This document shows positions 13,734-56,255 of a stretch of DNA of 64,000 nucleotides, one piece after another; the first letter of the stretch is position 1; each line of letters begins with the position of its first letter. Below the pieces are notes generated by a model. It did no database searches. It was given only the letters and a program-made list of their open reading frames with translations, and had not been told where the DNA came from. The DNA is taken from NCBI GenBank assembly GCA_029204225.1, contig CM055112.1:26394795-26458794 (forward strand). The letters run 5' to 3'. This DNA comes from Diphasiastrum complanatum (Eukaryota; Streptophyta; Lycopodiopsida; Lycopodiales; Lycopodiaceae). Made by a program: the position numbers and the translations under genes.

Positions 13734-14380
13734 TGTGAAAAATACAGATCCTAAGTGGATCTAAACTCCAAGATCATTGGCTTGAATGCTTGCACTCCAA
13801 ACTACATAAGCTAGGAATTGGCAACACATTCTATGCTACCTAGAATGCAAAGAACTTGATCAAAAAGCATTTATCACAAATGGAAACTTCCATAAACATC
13901 AAGTGCGGCCCAAAATAGCATTATACAGTCCATAATACATCAGCCTATCACTTTTGGAAAGCACCTAAGATCATACACACAAAGCTTGAACTCAATCACT
14001 ACACAATGCCAACAATGGAAGGAGAACCCAATAGAAAAATCTCTCATTAAGCAAATGAATACAATGGATATGCTCCAACCTGTTTCTCCACGGCCTACCT
14101 GCTATATATAGCTGAGAGAGATGACTCTCTCTCCTCTCTCTAGACCCTCCTTACCTAAAATATGCCCTATATAGGTAAAATTGGCATATATGTCCAAAAT
14201 ACATGAAAATGGACTCATTTCGAAGGTCTTGAAGTTTGACACTTCTTCATACTGAAAAAATACACTTACTAAAAATATCTAGACCTGTTTCACATGTGTG
14301 AAAAGTCAGATCCTAAACTATGTGCCATTTTTAGCAATTTTGGCCTAAAACTAGACAAGGAAATGTTGACAATTTTCACA
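13734..14380 (-). repeat. 3' LTR of the gag-only element (647 bp)
   Basis: TGTGAAAA...TTTTCACA ends. It differs from the 5' copy at about 14069 (A for C), in the CGAAGG/CGAAAG stretch near 14225, and at 14296 (CACATG for CACGTG). A TATATATA box lies near 14103-14110 on the transcribed strand, preceded by pyrimidine-rich sequence. CTCCCTCTTCAAC at 14381-14393 is the complement of the polypurine tract. Confidence 0.93.
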
Positions 14381-14393
14381 CTCCCTCTTCAAC

Positions 14394-15440
14394 TTAACTT
14401 GCTAGTTTTACAACACTACTTTGTTCCAACTTAAGAATGATCTCCATCATCAGAATAGATCTCTTCTCAAGGATCCTAATATGTACAAAATAGGACACAA
14501 CATAATTGATATAGATAATAGTGTCCATATAGGATGCTTCACTATTTCTTACATCAATTTTACATAGAATCATAAAAATGGTACATGTAAAAGAACATAG
14601 AATCTCAATTAATGAATTCCTCCATGTATCCATCTCTGGTTTCTCTGTAAAATAGCAGCAAACAAGTTGTAAATGAAAGTGATCAACAAGTGTTTGCATG
14701 CCTCCTCCACATTTCACTATACATATAGTGAATGCAACATGTATCTCCATGAATGAACTTCCATCACCACCTTGCCTTTGTAGATCTTCAATCCATGAAA
14801 GCCTTTGAGTGAATGAATGCCAAAAAGATGTGTTCCCTACTCCATTTGAATGACCAAAACCTGAACTTGAAATACTTGAAGTACCTCCACAAGATTTGCA
14901 CACAACGCTTGATCCTACAATGTCAACAAGTTGCCAATTTGCCAACACTAGAATACTAGATCTTGAACTTTGTTCAAAAGAAAACATATTGACCACTTCA
15001 ATACCTTTCAAGATCTGAATGAATTCATGTACTTGATCATACAAACCAGCAATGATAACTATTCCATCTCCAAGATCCAAAGGATGCAAAACTATGGAAC
15101 TAGTTTTATTGAAATTTGACAATTTCAACACATTGACATAACAATGTTCATACATGAGATTAGGCAAGTGAGGTAGAGTAAGAAGACACTTCCTTGCAGC
15201 TCCAAAGACCTTACTTGAACCTTCAAGAACCTGTAAAAACAGATCCAAAATGCCTTGACCATTTGTCTCTTCTTTGATGCTTTTCACTAGCTTCGAATTG
15301 CCACTTGTCTCTTGGTGTTGATGAAGCAATCCAAGATCAACCTCTTGATCTTCCAATAAGACATCAAAGATCTTGCATATGTGAACATCTTCAGATCTGA
15401 AACTCTGAAGATACTCCCTCTCAAACACATGATTAAGATC
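14394..15440 (-). CDS. Downstream in-frame part of the gag-only element's long ORF, unknown function
   Basis: 344 open codons from 15428 to 14394, in the same frame as the Gag ORF and separated from it by one TGA (15441-15443) and four sense codons. There is no ATG at its head (the first plausible start codon is GTG), so it is better read as the continuation of the upstream protein, by readthrough or by recent mutation of the stop. The N-terminal half is leucine-rich; the C-terminal part has hydrophobic, possibly membrane-spanning stretches (IEILCSFTCTIFMIL, then INYVVSYFVHIRIL). A segment near 14570-14800 recurs in element X (11880-12060) and at 23440-23660. No known domain is recognised. 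It is not RT, integrase or an envelope protein that I can identify. Confidence 0.6.
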   Translation of the reverse strand, partial: DLNHVFEREYLQSFRSEDVHICKIFDVLLEDQEVDLGLLHQHQETSGNSKLVKSIKEETNGQGILDLFLQVLEGSSKVFGAARKCLLTLPHLPNLMYEHCYVNVLKLSNFNKTSSIVLHPLDLGDGIVIIAGLYDQVHEFIQILKGIEVVNMFSFEQSSRSSILVLANWQLVDIVGSSVVCKSCGGTSSISSSGFGHSNGVGNTSFWHSFTQRLSWIEDLQRQGGDGSSFMEIHVAFTICIVKCGGGMQTLVDHFHLQLVCCYFTEKPEMDTWRNSLIEILCSFTCTIFMILCKIDVRNSEASYMDTIIYINYVVSYFVHIRILEKRSILMMEIILKLEQSSVVKLAS

Positions 15441-17534
15441 TCACAAGATCTCATCAATGCTCAAATTTGACCCTTCACTATAGTTAGTGAAAACAATGCC
15501 ACCATCATAAACCAAAAGATAGATTCCAACATTTCCATTTAACATGAAGTAGAGTAGGTGAAGATGAGTATCAAACCTAATCAAAACAGCCCTCTTGAGT
15601 TCATAACAAACCTCAATAAGCTCACCAATGATATCTCCCTTGCCTTGAAGAAGTTGCCACTTGAGTTGCTCCATGTAGTCTTCTTCAACCAACCTTTTGC
15701 CATCTTGACCATGAATGAACAATCCACCACAATCATAGAATGCTTTGAGTTGATGAAGAGATGTTAGATCCATGCTTTGGATCTTCCCAAGAACCACTCT
15801 TCCATTGCCCTTTCCTTCACAAGACTCCCTCTTAATGCTAGCACCACAAAAGTTAGAAACCTCCCTCTTGATAGTTGCACCATAAGAAGTAGAAGACTCT
15901 TGAATATTAGAATCCAAGAAAAGAATCCTTAGTACCTTCAACATAAGAGTGATTGAAGTACTCTCTCTTTTCAAACATGAACTTCTACTCAATGATTTAG
16001 GTAATGAGTCATATGATAATGATTCTTCCTCACTATCGTTCATAAAAACATCATTCAAAGTACATCCTACTTTGAACACTTCACATACTTCTCTTCCTTT
16101 TGACTTGTGATCTCCCTCACCAAGTCTCATGATAGAAACCTTTGATCTACTCTTTTTATGAAGAAATGTGACACCACTTGTTGCACAAATGACTTTATCA
16201 CAAAAAGATGTAAAAGAACCATTTCCTTCAAGCATGCTCAAAGCACCATCATCTTTTCCCACATGATTACATACATCAATATGAAAAGAATTAGAAGAAC
16301 AACCATCTTCTTGCAAAGAATGACACTTAGCATCTCCATCTTTTTCCATATGAACAAACAAGTCATTAGCAACAATCACTTCCAAAGAAGAATCTTCATC
16401 AACTCCATTGATGAAGTTAGCTCCTTCCTTACCTTTTCCATTTTTGCACTTGCCATCTAGTTCCATTGAAGAGCCACCAAGACTTGAAAATCTATGAGTA
16501 GAAGAGTTCAAACATGATACTAATTTAGCACCACATGACTCCATTTGACTAGTAGGTAGCACTAGTCCATCTTCAAGATCCAATGGATCCAAAAAATTGA
16601 CCATAGATTCACCAAAGCTTGCCAAGTTAGCACAACAATTATCATCTCCAAGAAGTACATTAGATCTCAACCTAGATCTAGCATTTTGTTTCTTATGGCA
16701 TTCATTTGCAAAATGTCCTTTCACTCCACAATAAAAACATTTGAACTTGGACTTATCTTGCTTCCTACTTTGCAAAGAAGAAGAATGCTTTCCATGCTCC
16801 AAACTACCTTGCTTGGACCACTTGCCTTTGAACTTGCCCTTTGTGAAAAGAGCTTCTTCATCTCCACCTTGTGTTGATGCACCACCACCTTTGGCTTGCA
16901 ACCTATGCTCTTCAGCCACCAAGATCTCTTGCAAGTCATTGACACTTGGCAAGGACTTTTGTATAGCAAAGCATTGTACAAGGTTAGAATGTTCATCAAG
17001 CAAACCATTCAACATGACTTGAACTAGTTCCCCATCCTTTATGCTTTCATCTATGCATGCTAGATCATCATTCAAGGATTTAACCTTCAAGACAAATGAA
17101 TGTGCACTCTCTCCCTCTCTTTGACAACTTTGGAAGATTTGCCTTCTTAGGGTGAGAACCCTAGATGTGGATTTGGACTCATAGATCTTCTTCAAAGCAT
17201 TCCATGCTTCACTTGAAGAAGTACATTTACCAACTTCTTTAAGAAGTTCATTGGTAACATTCATCTTTATGATATGTAAGGCTCTTTTAGCCCTTCTATC
17301 AAAATTTAGTTGCTCTTGAAGAATTAGAGGTCTTTCTTCAATTCCCACAACTATATCCATTAGCTCATTCAACTCTAGTAAAGACTCCATCCTCACTTTC
17401 CAAGTTGAATAGTTTGTAGAGTTTAACCTCTCTTTAGCTTCCAACATGATTCCACCATTGGATGTCATGATGCTAATATCTTCTTGTGTCCTTAGGCTCT
17501 GTTCTAATGCACCTAGCACTCTCCTTTCTCTCAA
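15441..17534 (-). CDS. Gag with long unknown C-terminal extension
   Basis: 697 codons; the probable start is the second Met (codon 23, MTSNGGIMLEAKERL), which aligns with the start of neighbouring Gags. Residues 30-215 are the UBN2-type Gag (TNYSTWKVRMESLLEL, LLKEVGKCTSSSEAWNALKKIY, VLTLRRQIFQ). A CCHC knuckle follows at C266, C269, H274, C279, the nucleic-acid-binding motif of Gag. The remaining 415 residues, rich in Ser, Asp, Glu and Gly, match nothing I recognise. Copia Gags normally end soon after the knuckle and run into protease; the DSG protease motif is absent. The frame ends at TGA 15441-15443 and continues open beyond it for 348 codons. Its length in a non-autonomous element makes coding use likely. 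Confidence 0.75.
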   Translation of the reverse strand: MRERRVLGALEQSLRTQEDISIMTSNGGIMLEAKERLNSTNYSTWKVRMESLLELNELMDIVVGIEERPLILQEQLNFDRRAKRALHIIKMNVTNELLKEVGKCTSSSEAWNALKKIYESKSTSRVLTLRRQIFQSCQREGESAHSFVLKVKSLNDDLACIDESIKDGELVQVMLNGLLDEHSNLVQCFAIQKSLPSVNDLQEILVAEEHRLQAKGGGASTQGGDEEALFTKGKFKGKWSKQGSLEHGKHSSSLQSRKQDKSKFKCFYCGVKGHFANECHKKQNARSRLRSNVLLGDDNCCANLASFGESMVNFLDPLDLEDGLVLPTSQMESCGAKLVSCLNSSTHRFSSLGGSSMELDGKCKNGKGKEGANFINGVDEDSSLEVIVANDLFVHMEKDGDAKCHSLQEDGCSSNSFHIDVCNHVGKDDGALSMLEGNGSFTSFCDKVICATSGVTFLHKKSRSKVSIMRLGEGDHKSKGREVCEVFKVGCTLNDVFMNDSEEESLSYDSLPKSLSRSSCLKRESTSITLMLKVLRILFLDSNIQESSTSYGATIKREVSNFCGASIKRESCEGKGNGRVVLGKIQSMDLTSLHQLKAFYDCGGLFIHGQDGKRLVEEDYMEQLKWQLLQGKGDIIGELIEVCYELKRAVLIRFDTHLHLLYFMLNGNVGIYLLVYDGGIVFTNYSEGSNLSIDEIL

Positions 17535-18626
17535 TAAATGAAGAAGGAGAAGATCTTAAAAGATTTAGAACCCTAAATGACCTCTATCTTGAAACTATTT
17601 GGCTTTCAAGCATAGAAAGGAAGATTGAAACACATGCAACACTTTGCACACACTAAGAATGGATTACAAACTCAAACCAACCTGAACACACTCTTGCTTA
17701 AGCTCTCAAACTTTCCAGCAAGTGACCAAATCAAGTTATGGTGTGAAGAGTTACTTGCATTCTTAGAAAATACCCAAAACTAGGATGCCAAAATTACCTA
17801 GTAATGAACAAACTTGATCAACATATGATCACCACACTAAGATATTGATTCAACCTGTAAAACCACATGTAAACCACACTTCTAAAAGTTTATAAACTCC
17901 AGCAAGTGATAAATACAAGATTTAGAGGTGAATGAATGAGCACACTTAGTGAATCACAAGACTAGCTTCACTATCTTGTCAAAATTTGGTGTTTAGATGT
18001 AGATCTAAGATCACTTCACATGAGAATGTTCCTCAACCTGTTAAGAACCTGAAAACACACTTGCATAATGGTTAACACCTTCCAGCAAATGCTCCAATCA
18101 AATTACATAAGGAGAGTTACTTACATGCTCAACAAAGTACACCAAAAATTATGCCAAAATTGATGACAATCTTTACAATATGCTCTTCACAATGGAGCTT
18201 ACAATATGTTCACCCAAAAAAGGGGATCTTTCATCCAAATGGGAGCTTTGCTCAGCCTTTAGGAGAATTACAACTCACTCAAAAGAGCATTTGTCATCCA
18301 CTTAAGGAGAAGTTTCATCCACTTAAGGAGAGTGTTCATCCAAGAATGGAGATTGTCAACAATAGGATTGAAAAGAACATTGTTAGTATTGAATATGCAC
18401 AAGCCTCACAATCACAAATGATTAGGTGTTATGATCTGATCCAAAATAGTTTCTTTTCAGCCTCTGATCTTCAATAGACCTGAAATATGCTTTTGATCCA
18501 CAAGTTCAACTCACAAAACAAAGGTTAGTAAGATTTGATCAACAAAGCAATGCAAAATCATGCTAGAACTTGATCAAACATCCAAATATCACCAAAAATG
18601 GAATACTTACTGTAAATAGAAGCCAA
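17535..18626 (-). other. Untranslated leader of the gag-only element
   Basis: About 1.1 kb between the PBS and gag with no coding frame. Several diverged repeats of CATCCACTTAAGGAGA-like motifs occur at 18290-18345. A leader of this length could hold packaging and dimerisation signals, but that is inference. Confidence 0.6.
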
Positions 18627-18641
18627 CCAGCTCTGATACCA
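18627..18641 (-). other. Primer-binding site, tRNA-iMet type
   Basis: On the minus strand TGGTATCAGAGCTGG starts at the base next to the 5' LTR. TGGTATCAGAGC is the standard plant Copia PBS, complementary to the 3' end of initiator tRNA-Met. Confidence 0.93.
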
Positions 18642-19288
18642 TGTGAAAAATACAGATCCTAAGTGGATCTAAACTCCAAGATCATTGGCTTGAATGCTTG
18701 CACTCCAAACTACATAAGCTAGGAATTGGCAACACATTCTATGCTACCTAGAATGCAAAGAACTTGATCAAAAAGCATTTATCACAAATGGAAACTTCCA
18801 TAAACATCAAGTGCGGCCCAAAATAGCATTATACAGTCCATAATACATCAGCCTATCACTTTTGGAAAGCACCTAAGATCATACACACAAAGCTTGAACT
18901 CAATCACTACACAATGCCAACAATGGAAGGAGAACCCAATAGAAAAATCTCTCATTAAGCAAATGAATACAATGGATCTGCTCCAACCTGTTTCTCCACG
19001 GCCTACCTGCTATATATAGCTGAGAGAGATGACTCTCTCTCCTCTCTCTAGACCCTCCTTACCTAAAATATGCCCTATATAGGTAAAATTGGCATATATG
19101 TCCAAAATACATGAAAATGGACTCATTTCGAAAGTCTTGAAGTTTGACACTTCTTCATACTGAAAAAATACACTTACTAAAAATATCTAGACCTGTTTCA
19201 CACGTGTGAAAAGTCAGATCCTAAACTATGTGCCATTTTTAGCAATTTTGGCCTAAAACTAGACAAGGAAATGTTGACAATTTTCACA
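18642..19288 (-). repeat. 5' LTR of the gag-only element (647 bp)
   Basis: Same length and ends as the 3' copy. It carries the exact 16-bp palindrome TTTCACACGTGTGAAA at 19196-19211, where the 3' LTR has one substitution. Confidence 0.93.
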
Positions 19289-24246: not shown

Positions 24247-24785
24247 TGTGGAAAGTTTTACACTTGGTGTGTGTGGTCAGGCTAGGGATTGAACCTAGGA
24301 CTCTCCCATTTCCAGTGGGGTGCTCTACACCGAGCTACCCGTCCATTTCTGTTACCAAAGTTTGTGCAAGGGCTATGGCCTTGACACTTTCTAACACTCT
24401 CCCTCAAGGCATAGCCCTTTTTAGCTACCGCTCACCTAGACCACACCCACAACCATGGCTCTAATACCATGTGAAAAGTTTTTACACTTGGTGTGTGTGT
24501 TTGATCCCCCATTCCAGTGGGGTGCTCTACCACTGAGCTACCCATCCATTTGTGTTCCTAGAGTGTTGTGCGCAAGGGCTATAGCCTTGACACTTTCTAA
24601 TACTCCCCCTCAAGGCATAGCTCTTTTTAGCTACTACCCACCTAGACCACACCCTCAACCATGGCTCTGACACCATGTGAAAAGTTTTTACACTTGGTGT
24701 GTGTGTGTGTGGTCGGCGGGCTAGGGATTGAATCTAGGGCTCTCCCATTTTTGGTGGGGTGCTCTACCACTGAGCTGCCTGTCCA
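24247..24785 (-). mobile_element. TRIM element array with tRNA-like LTRs (three LTRs, two 73-bp internal regions)
   Basis: Minus-strand array: LTR 24247-24396 (150 bp), internal 24397-24469, LTR 24470-24602 (133 bp, internal deletion), internal 24603-24675, LTR 24676-24785 (truncated). Each 73-bp internal region carries CTCCCCCTCAAGG-like sequence (complement of a polypurine tract) at one end and ATGGCTCTAATACCA or ATGGCTCTGACACCA at the other, the complement of a tRNA-iMet PBS. Such small LTR plus PBS plus PPT units without genes are terminal-repeat retrotransposons in miniature. A fourth LTR of the family lies at 29804-29957. Tandem LTR arrays can come from recombination between copies. Confidence 0.85.
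24275..24344 (-). other. tRNA-like cloverleaf inside TRIM LTR
   Basis: The 70-nt minus-strand sequence folds by eye as a tRNA: acceptor GGACGGG against CCTGACC (6 of 7 pairs, one a wobble), TA, D stem GCTC/GAGC, anticodon stem CCCCA/TGGGA with loop CTGGAAA, short variable region, T stem CTAGG/CCTAG with loop TTCAATC. The D arm and T arm contain Pol III A-box-like (GTAGCTC...GTAGAGC) and B-box (GGTTCAATCCC, 24285-24295) sequences. The strand is the same as the element's sense strand. Sibling LTRs keep the A-box (24525-24545 region, 24765-24780, 29890-29900). It is repeat-borne and has mismatches, so I do not call a functional tRNA gene. Confidence 0.75.
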
Positions 24786-25186
24786 CTGGCTCTGATACCA
24801 TGTAAATAATGTGGGCCATAGGGCCATGCACACACACATACCCATGCGAGCCGTGTATTGAGATCCCACCCTCAGACGTGTAGCCATCCGCTATCCATCT
24901 AACCCCCAAAAGGACTGGTACCAGGGGATAGAGGATATAGACTCGAAGCCCCAACTTATATATGGCAGAGTTCAAGGCAAGCAATTACTTATGGGAAATT
25001 GAGAATTCTCAAGGCCTTCACTAGGTGCTCAAGCCCACGGCACTTTCCTGAGTGTGGCTTGCAGCCAAACATTTCACAACACCCCCACTCAAGCAAACAT
25101 AGGCAAGGGACCCCCATTGGCTCTGATACCATGTTAAGAATGTGGGCCACAGGTCTACGCACACACAGGTACCCACGCGAGCCGCG

Positions 25187-25191
25187 CATTG
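25187..25191 (+). other. Target-site duplication of element Z (CATTG)
   Basis: CATTG at 25187-25191 and again at 29570-29574. Removing Z and one copy rejoins LTR-Y2 at a point that aligns with ATTGAGATCCC in LTR-Y1. Confidence 0.93.
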
Positions 25192-28348: not shown

Positions 28349-29803
28349 TGTTGTAAAGCTATCTTCATAAGCTTTACTTCCGGCACCACTGGCGCCAGCA
28401 TTGTCCCCGGCGCCAGCAGCGCCCCTGTTGCTCCCGGCGCCACTGTGACCAGAATCTAGCCGGCGCCAAGTTCCTATGGCTGAAAATCTTTGATCGGTTC
28501 TAGCGAAGTCCAGAGAGCTCAGATCGATGTGCAATCACCTCACACGATCTAGGCATGATTAAAGGAAGCATGAGGATCAATAAAATCTAGAGAGAGAAAA
28601 TGACTTTCTAGAAAGAGAAAATTATAGAGAGAGAAAAACGTGTTTTACCAGCTTGGGTAGAGTGCTTGGTATGAGGGGGGGTGCCGAATCACACCAATAC
28701 TATAGGGGAGTGCGGGTTGCGACTCAGGGCGAGCTCCAACCAAGTCTCAGCCTCCCTTGCTGGAATGTTGTCATGGCTCTCGCCTTGGCATGCTAGTGCC
28801 TTGGAGACTAGGGTCGGTCACACATCTGAAATGTAACCTTCTCAGATTTATCAATAAAGTGGAATTCTCCTCAAACTGACTCTGATTACCTTCTGGGTTT
28901 CAGTGTTCGGTAAAAGCGCCAGTTGTAAGGCCGCTTTCAAAATTTTTAAGTTGGCACATAGCTGAGGGTCGTATCTCGGGATGCCAACGGTATGCCGTCA
29001 GGACCATTCGGTCCGTGGCGCCAGCGGTATGCTGTCGGGACCATTTGGTCCAGAACTGGTTGTCTTCATATCTGTCGTGGCTTGTGGTTCTAAGTGTTCC
29101 TTGCATGAACGTGAATGGGTTAAGCTCTTGGGGAACAGGCTCTATCTAACCTGTCGGTTGAGTTGGATGGCTTGCTTGGGTGGAAGTTACCTGTTTATGG
29201 CTGTCCAGTCTGGCGTGGTGCCAGGTTGGCTTCCAGCGCTCGTGACGAAGCTTTCAGTTGGTTAAGTCTGATGTAAGTCAGACCGCTTGCTTGGAATGGA
29301 TGTTACTTGTTTGTAATGAAGCTTTGAGTTGATTAAGTTTGATGTATGTCGGGCAGCTTGCTTGGAGGGAAGTCACCCACATCGGGACCCCCGATCTAAC
29401 ATGGCGCCAGGTTGGATCTCAATGTTGGTTTTCGGAAATTCAAGTTGGTTAAGTCTGATCGTTGTTGACAAGTTGGCTGCTTGTATGTCAAGTGGGTTTG
29501 GATGGCAAGAGTTGAAGGCTGGGAAGCTAAGTCGTGGTTCCCAGCTCCCTTTGGAATGCCTGCGCTACACATTGGGATTCCCCCCCAGACGTCTTCCCCA
29601 AAGGGCTGGTACCAGGGGATAGAGGATATAGAGAAGCCCCAACTTATATATGGGAGACAAGCAATTACTTATGGGATATTGAGAATTATCAAGGCCTTCA
29701 CTAGGTGCTCAAGCCCATGGCACTTTCCTGTGCATGGCTTGCAACAAAACATTCGGCAACCCCCATGACATAGACCACACCCACAACCATGGCTATGATA
29801 CCA

Positions 29804-29957
29804 TTTGAAAACTTTTTACACTTGGTGTGTGTGGTTGGTCTAGGAATTTGAGCCTAGGACCTCCCCCATTCTGGTGGGGTGCTCTACCATTGAGCTACCT
29901 ATCCATTTGTATTCCTAGAGTGTTGTGCAAGGGTTGTAGCCTTGAAACTTTCTAACA
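29804..29957 (-). repeat. TRIM LTR with tRNA-like sequence, fourth copy
   Basis: 154 bp, aligned with 24247-24396. On the minus strand it reads GGATAGGTAGCTCAATGG and onward to a T-arm CTAGGCTCAAATTCCTAG. It borders the interrupted Copia integrase at 29958. A 33-bp piece of the TRIM internal region with the PBS complement (29771-29803) lies on its left. Confidence 0.85.

Positions 29958-51179: not shown

Positions 51180-52263
<1,084 letters not shown>

Positions 52264-55299: not shown

Positions 55300-56255
<956 letters not shown>

Follow-up and report, generated by a model that had tools for sequence, protein, structure and literature searches.

Several groups of small retrotransposons with Pol III promoters have been described, and the closest to the element reported here is Helenus, a group of TRIMs with a tRNA-derived sequence in their LTRs, for which the term TRIMp3 was coined (Kojima 2024, PMC10886601). 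In the text of that paper the A box of Helenus is given as TRGCY and YGG and the B box as GGTTC, a 5-bp TSD is attributed to the fungal and plant members, and section 4.1 describes their transcription by Pol III as still lacking experimental validation (PMC10886601). The only plant Helenus listed there is Helenus-1_SMo, from the lycophyte Selaginella moellendorffii, with an LTR of 120 bp and an internal region of 85 bp (PMC10886601). Kojima's paper is cited in a meeting report of 2026, and a butterfly genome paper also came up for Helenus. Selaginella TRIMs were also reported by Gao 2016, in whose main text the word tRNA does not occur (PMC4717578), and among the matches listed in the literature there was no other tRNA-bearing plant TRIM. 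Cassandra, in turn, is known to form tandem arrays and to have the PBS TGGTATCAGAGC (PMC7215508).

The locus studied here belongs to chromosome 21 of the clubmoss Diphasiastrum complanatum (Lycopodiopsida, Lycopodiales), within a stretch of 64,000 nucleotides (C21:26394795-26458794) that we call the window and in which the sense strand of the element is the minus strand. From 24785 down to 24247 on this strand, degraded TRIMs form a tandem of the type LTR-internal-LTR-internal-LTR. Its features, with those of a related piece some 5 kb away, are as follows.

24247-24396, 150 bp, minus strand: LTR1, the 3' LTR of the tandem, its tRNA-like unit being the best in the window (sequence reading)
24274-24344, minus strand: tRNA-like cloverleaf of LTR1, its anticodon loop reading Ser(GGA), without a long variable arm (ARAGORN; Rfam RF00005, 51.6 bits)
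24327-24337, minus strand: A-box-like motif of LTR1, with one D-loop base absent (reading and family alignment)
24285-24295, minus strand: B-box motif of LTR1, GGTTCAATCCC (reading and family alignment)
24397-24469, 73 bp, minus strand: first internal region, with PBS (TGGTATTAGAGCC) and PPT, too small for genes (reading)
24470-24602, 133 bp, minus strand: LTR2, with the T arm and B box deleted from its tRNA-like unit (reading)
24500-24548, minus strand: remnant 5' part of the LTR2 tRNA-like unit, with the acceptor 5' side, the D arm with A box and the anticodon arm (reading; direct repeats)
24603-24675, 73 bp, minus strand: second internal region (reading)
24676-24785, minus strand: LTR3, its 5' end cut short where it meets a second TRIM family (reading; repeats)
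24713-24784, minus strand: tRNA-like unit of LTR3 (Rfam, 31.9 bits)
29766-29803, minus strand: PBS with the first part of an internal region, which meets the second TRIM family at 29765 (reading)
29804-29957, 154 bp, minus strand: LTR4 (reading)
29832-29904, minus strand: tRNA-like unit of LTR4 (Rfam, 35.8 bits)

The initial annotation, made from the sequence of the window, had recognised short LTRs and 73-bp internal regions holding a PBS and a PPT, and this layout holds for LTR1, LTR2 and LTR4 and for the two complete internal regions, which begin with TGGTATTAGAGCC and TGGTGTCAGAGCC (PBS type TGGTATCAGAGCC) and finish with a purine-rich tract. It had also proposed a tRNA cloverleaf with Pol III boxes on the sense strand of the LTR, recurring in four LTRs and with the B box deleted in one of them, and this is borne out. 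Matches to Rfam RF00005 were obtained on the minus strand in three of the four LTRs, with an E value of 3.5e-8 in LTR1, and the single tRNA called by ARAGORN in the locus lies at 24273-24344; LTR2 gave no tRNA match with either ARAGORN or Rfam. In LTR1 one D-loop base is missing, and neither a TTTT nor, within 10 bases upstream, a CAA is present; given the absence of these two signals this copy is probably dead. The window copy ranks among the worse-preserved members of the family. A duplicate of the locus (L009, C21:26537100-26538900), 98.5% identical over 1801 bp, is found about 118 kb away.

Other elements occur in the same window. The second TRIM family, at 24786-25190 and 29500-29765, has the same PBS as the tRNA-bearing TRIM and a TATATAAG box, and shows no Rfam match at the gathering threshold; it abuts the tRNA-bearing TRIM directly at 24785/24786 and 29765/29766, and these joins suggest that recombination or template switching has produced hybrid elements. 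At 13734-19288, on the minus strand, lies a young insertion, an LTR element of 5.5 kb with 647-bp LTRs that are 99.5% identical and GCACT on both sides. It shares with the tRNA-bearing TRIM only the letters of the LTR ends and the PBS. The stretches 51913-52065 and 56091-56247, identical over about 151-153 bp in several registers, are short-period repeat. The window also contains a sugar-nucleotide transporter gene whose exons, joined by eye, correspond to O6H91_21G041300 (100% identity over 74% of the query), the match with the top E-value being another Diphasiastrum complanatum protein of 87% identity.

The family was followed through the 1.745-Gb assembly, in which 23 contigs measure 42-102 Mb, the next 10.9 Mb, and the others are small. 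A first search gave at least 83 matches, 40 being scored of 565 candidates, and 40 stretches were fetched, of which 39 surround matches and one (L048) is a neighbour that had no prior match. Similarity of flanks sorts the 39 matched stretches into 29 groups, since several loci are duplicates. The tRNA-like unit was found by cmscan in 39 of the 40 stretches, L048 being the sole miss, with 73 tRNA matches of 29.7-57.8 bits, every one in the sense orientation of the LTR. A 35-nt core recurs at 478 genomic places with at most 3 mismatches, duplicates included, as against none for the reversed control; among the first 30 loci with the exact core, several of which are the two LTRs of one element, both LTR edges stand beside the core in 27 and at least one edge in all 30. 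ARAGORN called a tRNA in 39 of 48 distinct full LTRs, always on the sense strand, and was silent on the other nine; it called none in 960 shuffles that preserve dinucleotides. Hence the two outcomes that the initial annotation had named as fatal to its claim, a tRNA score no better than that of shuffled sequence and a tRNA-like part confined to this locus, did not occur. Tandem LTR-internal-LTR arrays are present at the window, L009, L019 and L030/L038. Taken together, the tRNA-bearing TRIM design is real and widespread across the Diphasiastrum complanatum genome.

Loci with shared flanks, some of them on small contigs, are L013/L014/L032/L033, L011/L018, L015/L027, L021/L022, L023/L024, L030/L038 and L045/L046, and they reflect segmental duplication or haplotypes left uncollapsed in the assembly.

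The tRNA-bearing element is a real LTR retrotransposon. In the best-preserved copies, for example L041, an internal region of 73 bp is flanked by LTRs of 153 bp, which gives a total of about 379 bp, and with two LTRs, less than 1000 bp in all and no coding capacity the element is a TRIM. The LTRs, 153 bp long in 39 of the 48 distinct ones, have the ends TGTTAG...TTTTCACA, and a PBS and a PPT are present between them in the window and in the fetched copies, L041 included. From its presumed match to the 3' end of that tRNA, we take the PBS to be of the initiator tRNA-Met type. With duplicates merged, and with the arrays L019 and L047 and the pair L021/L022 (low-complexity CTCTCT flank, one LTR only fitting the pattern) omitted, an identical 5-bp TSD is seen on both sides of 7 of 11 distinct two-LTR sites and is absent at the other 4. 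The LTR pairs differ by a K2P distance of 0.020-0.078 (21 pairs, duplicates included), a spread which indicates insertions of various ages.

The junction of the internal region and the 3' LTR folds into a stable hairpin (24363-24430 in the window, and the equivalent junctions elsewhere), in which the 3' end of the internal region pairs with the beginning of the 3' LTR, and the PPT and the LTR boundary lie in the loop. The commonest junction folds at -26.8 kcal/mol, compared with -15.8 (sd 2.8) for mononucleotide shuffles, and 2 of 24 distinct junctions (L042; L045/L046), judged by eye, fold differently. In part, the hairpin is also due to a palindrome within the LTR itself.

The tRNA-like unit is probably not a working tRNA. 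That the element multiplied a functional tRNA gene might be read from the scores of up to 57.8 bits and from the anticodons assigned in four of the 39 ARAGORN calls, Ser(GGA) in 3 and Phe(GAA) in 1, but the anticodon was unassignable in the other 35, the majority anticodon loop of the aligned units has 6 nt, where a functional tRNA has 7, and the acceptor pair 3:70 does not form in any of the 52 aligned, so that a fully paired acceptor stem is lacking. Moreover, tRNA-Ser has a long variable arm, and the Ser reading comes without one. Nor is there a close host tRNA within the sample examined, which consists of 49 places fetched of 63 scored with the Rfam tRNA family, out of 84,948 candidates, and is biased to high scorers. 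ARAGORN made calls at 47 of these 49 places, amounting to 29 distinct sequences with 13 isotype-anticodon labels, and the other two (L133, L134) proved to be LTRs of the tRNA-bearing family itself. The best match of the 29 distinct sampled tRNAs to the commonest unit was 50 of 66 aligned positions, close to the average of 48.8 identities that these tRNAs share among themselves, and thus no parent stands out. We regard a working tRNA gene as a most improbable explanation.

The unit occupies one fixed place in the LTR, at position 53, 54 or 56 in 39 of 39 ARAGORN calls, and this bears on the idea that a tRNA-derived SINE was simply inserted into, or beside, a single LTR copy, without any link to the family as such. 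SINE heads resemble such tRNA-like units. Insertion of a SINE is the origin proposed for Helenus by Kojima (PMC10886601), but the constant position and the LTR edge kept at 30 of 30 core-selected loci rule it out as a local accident, an event to which we assign almost no weight; as an ancient origin of the unit it is possible. The captured sequence may have been either a tRNA gene or a SINE head, the two sources suggested by the initial annotation.

What the LTR appears to contain is the anatomy of a Pol III gene. The tRNA-like unit covers positions 54-125 of the majority LTR and has 53 bp of LTR ahead of it. A CAA is found at -10..-1 upstream of the unit in 44 of the 48 distinct LTRs, strict A-box and B-box patterns in 39 and 41, respectively, and TTTT in 44, at positions 146-149 in 37 of them; the majority A and B boxes of the 52 aligned units are TAGCTCAGTGG and GGTTCAATCC. 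A plant tRNA gene has its CAA, A box, B box and TTTT in this same order. For comparison, about 36-45% of angiosperm tRNA genes are given a CAA within 10 bases, and about 67-73% a downstream run of at least 4 T (PMC11700998). From this anatomy, transcription of the family LTRs by Pol III is likely.

In the mechanism that we propose, TFIIIC would bind the A and B boxes of the LTR, and Pol III would start near the CAA (LTR positions 49-51) and stop at the TTTT (146-149), so that any LTR could give a predicted RNA of about 100 nt. If the weak 4-T stop of the 5' LTR were read through, a genomic RNA of about 326 nt, extending to the TTTT in the 3' LTR, would be expected (lengths from L041). Both ends of this RNA would share an R region of about 100 nt, with a U5 reduced to CACA and the PBS directly after it. 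Reverse transcription and integration of the RNA would be provided in trans by an autonomous LTR element, probably Copia. The tRNA-like unit would serve as promoter and not as tRNA. Against such a model, the TTTT of the 5' LTR precedes the PBS, and no genomic RNA would be made if termination there were efficient.

The tRNA-like sequence could instead be a fossil passenger, captured once with a SINE or a tRNA gene and spread with the LTR, while transcription of the element relies on Pol II and a different promoter. The initial annotation had suggested looking for compensatory changes in the cloverleaf, and here the outcome was negative: among the 52 aligned units the covariation score was 0.049, compared with 0.050 in shuffles, a level that would be expected of dead copies belonging to a single family and does not support selection on the fold. 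Likewise, the tRNA-like part is not more conserved than its surroundings, its mean divergence being 0.035 compared with 0.022 in the 53 positions before it and 0.021 in the 28 positions that follow; a permutation test for stronger conservation there than elsewhere in the LTR gave p 0.97. A passenger agrees with both results, but against it stand the presence of CAA, A box, B box and TTTT together in the family, a TATA[AT]A pattern in only 2 of 48 distinct LTRs and a unit preceded by only 53 bp of LTR. We hold a passenger to be a minority possibility, perhaps one chance in a handful, and consider it probable that the element is a Helenus-type TRIM in which a degenerate tRNA gene in the LTR acts as a Pol III promoter.

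By its build the family is a new member of Helenus, and so of a known kind, the comparison with Helenus-1_SMo being made by description only. It has the size of a TRIM, a tRNA-like sequence in its LTRs with A and B boxes, a PBS and a PPT, a 5-bp TSD and a tRNA-like part unlikely to function as tRNA, as described for Helenus. It differs from Helenus-1_SMo in its LTR of 153 bp and internal region of 73 bp and in its host, Diphasiastrum (Lycopodiales), which does not appear in Table 1 of PMC10886601. In a term search of that paper's text neither CAA nor hairpin occurred, and the single use of 'terminator' concerns Cassandra. The analogy with Cassandra drawn by the initial annotation is apt, in that both are plant TRIMs with tandem arrays, a comparable PBS and, putatively in the present family, a Pol III promoter inside the LTR (PMC7215508), although the design was already in print as Helenus/TRIMp3 (PMC10886601). 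In Cassandra the LTR unit derives from 5S rRNA, whereas here it is tRNA-like, and no 5S match at the Rfam gathering threshold was found in the window locus or in the 40 fetched stretches, which sets the family apart from Cassandra. Ajax is also a TRIMp3 with a promoter derived from a small RNA, but it is 5S-derived and comes from two nemerteans (PMC10886601). The tRNA-derived SINEs have a similar tRNA-like head with A and B boxes (PMC10886601), but use a tail for the LINE machinery, instead of which the Diphasiastrum family has LTRs, PBS, PPT and 5-bp TSDs.

A wider and rather speculative idea, which we think doubtful, is that Selaginella and Lycopodiaceae share an old lineage of Pol III-driven, tRNA-capturing TRIMs, in which the LTR has all the parts of a Pol III gene (CAA, A, B, T4) and the weak T4 gives both an LTR RNA of about 100 nt and a read-through genome, and terminator strength may set the R region and the rate of transposition. 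With this family, TRIMs of the tRNA-promoter type reach a second order of lycophytes, in hundreds of LTR copies and with clear insertion signatures, and the group is now testable in a plant. A further caution is that some of the tRNAs predicted in clubmoss genomes will be LTR copies, as were 2 of the 49 tRNA places fetched here.
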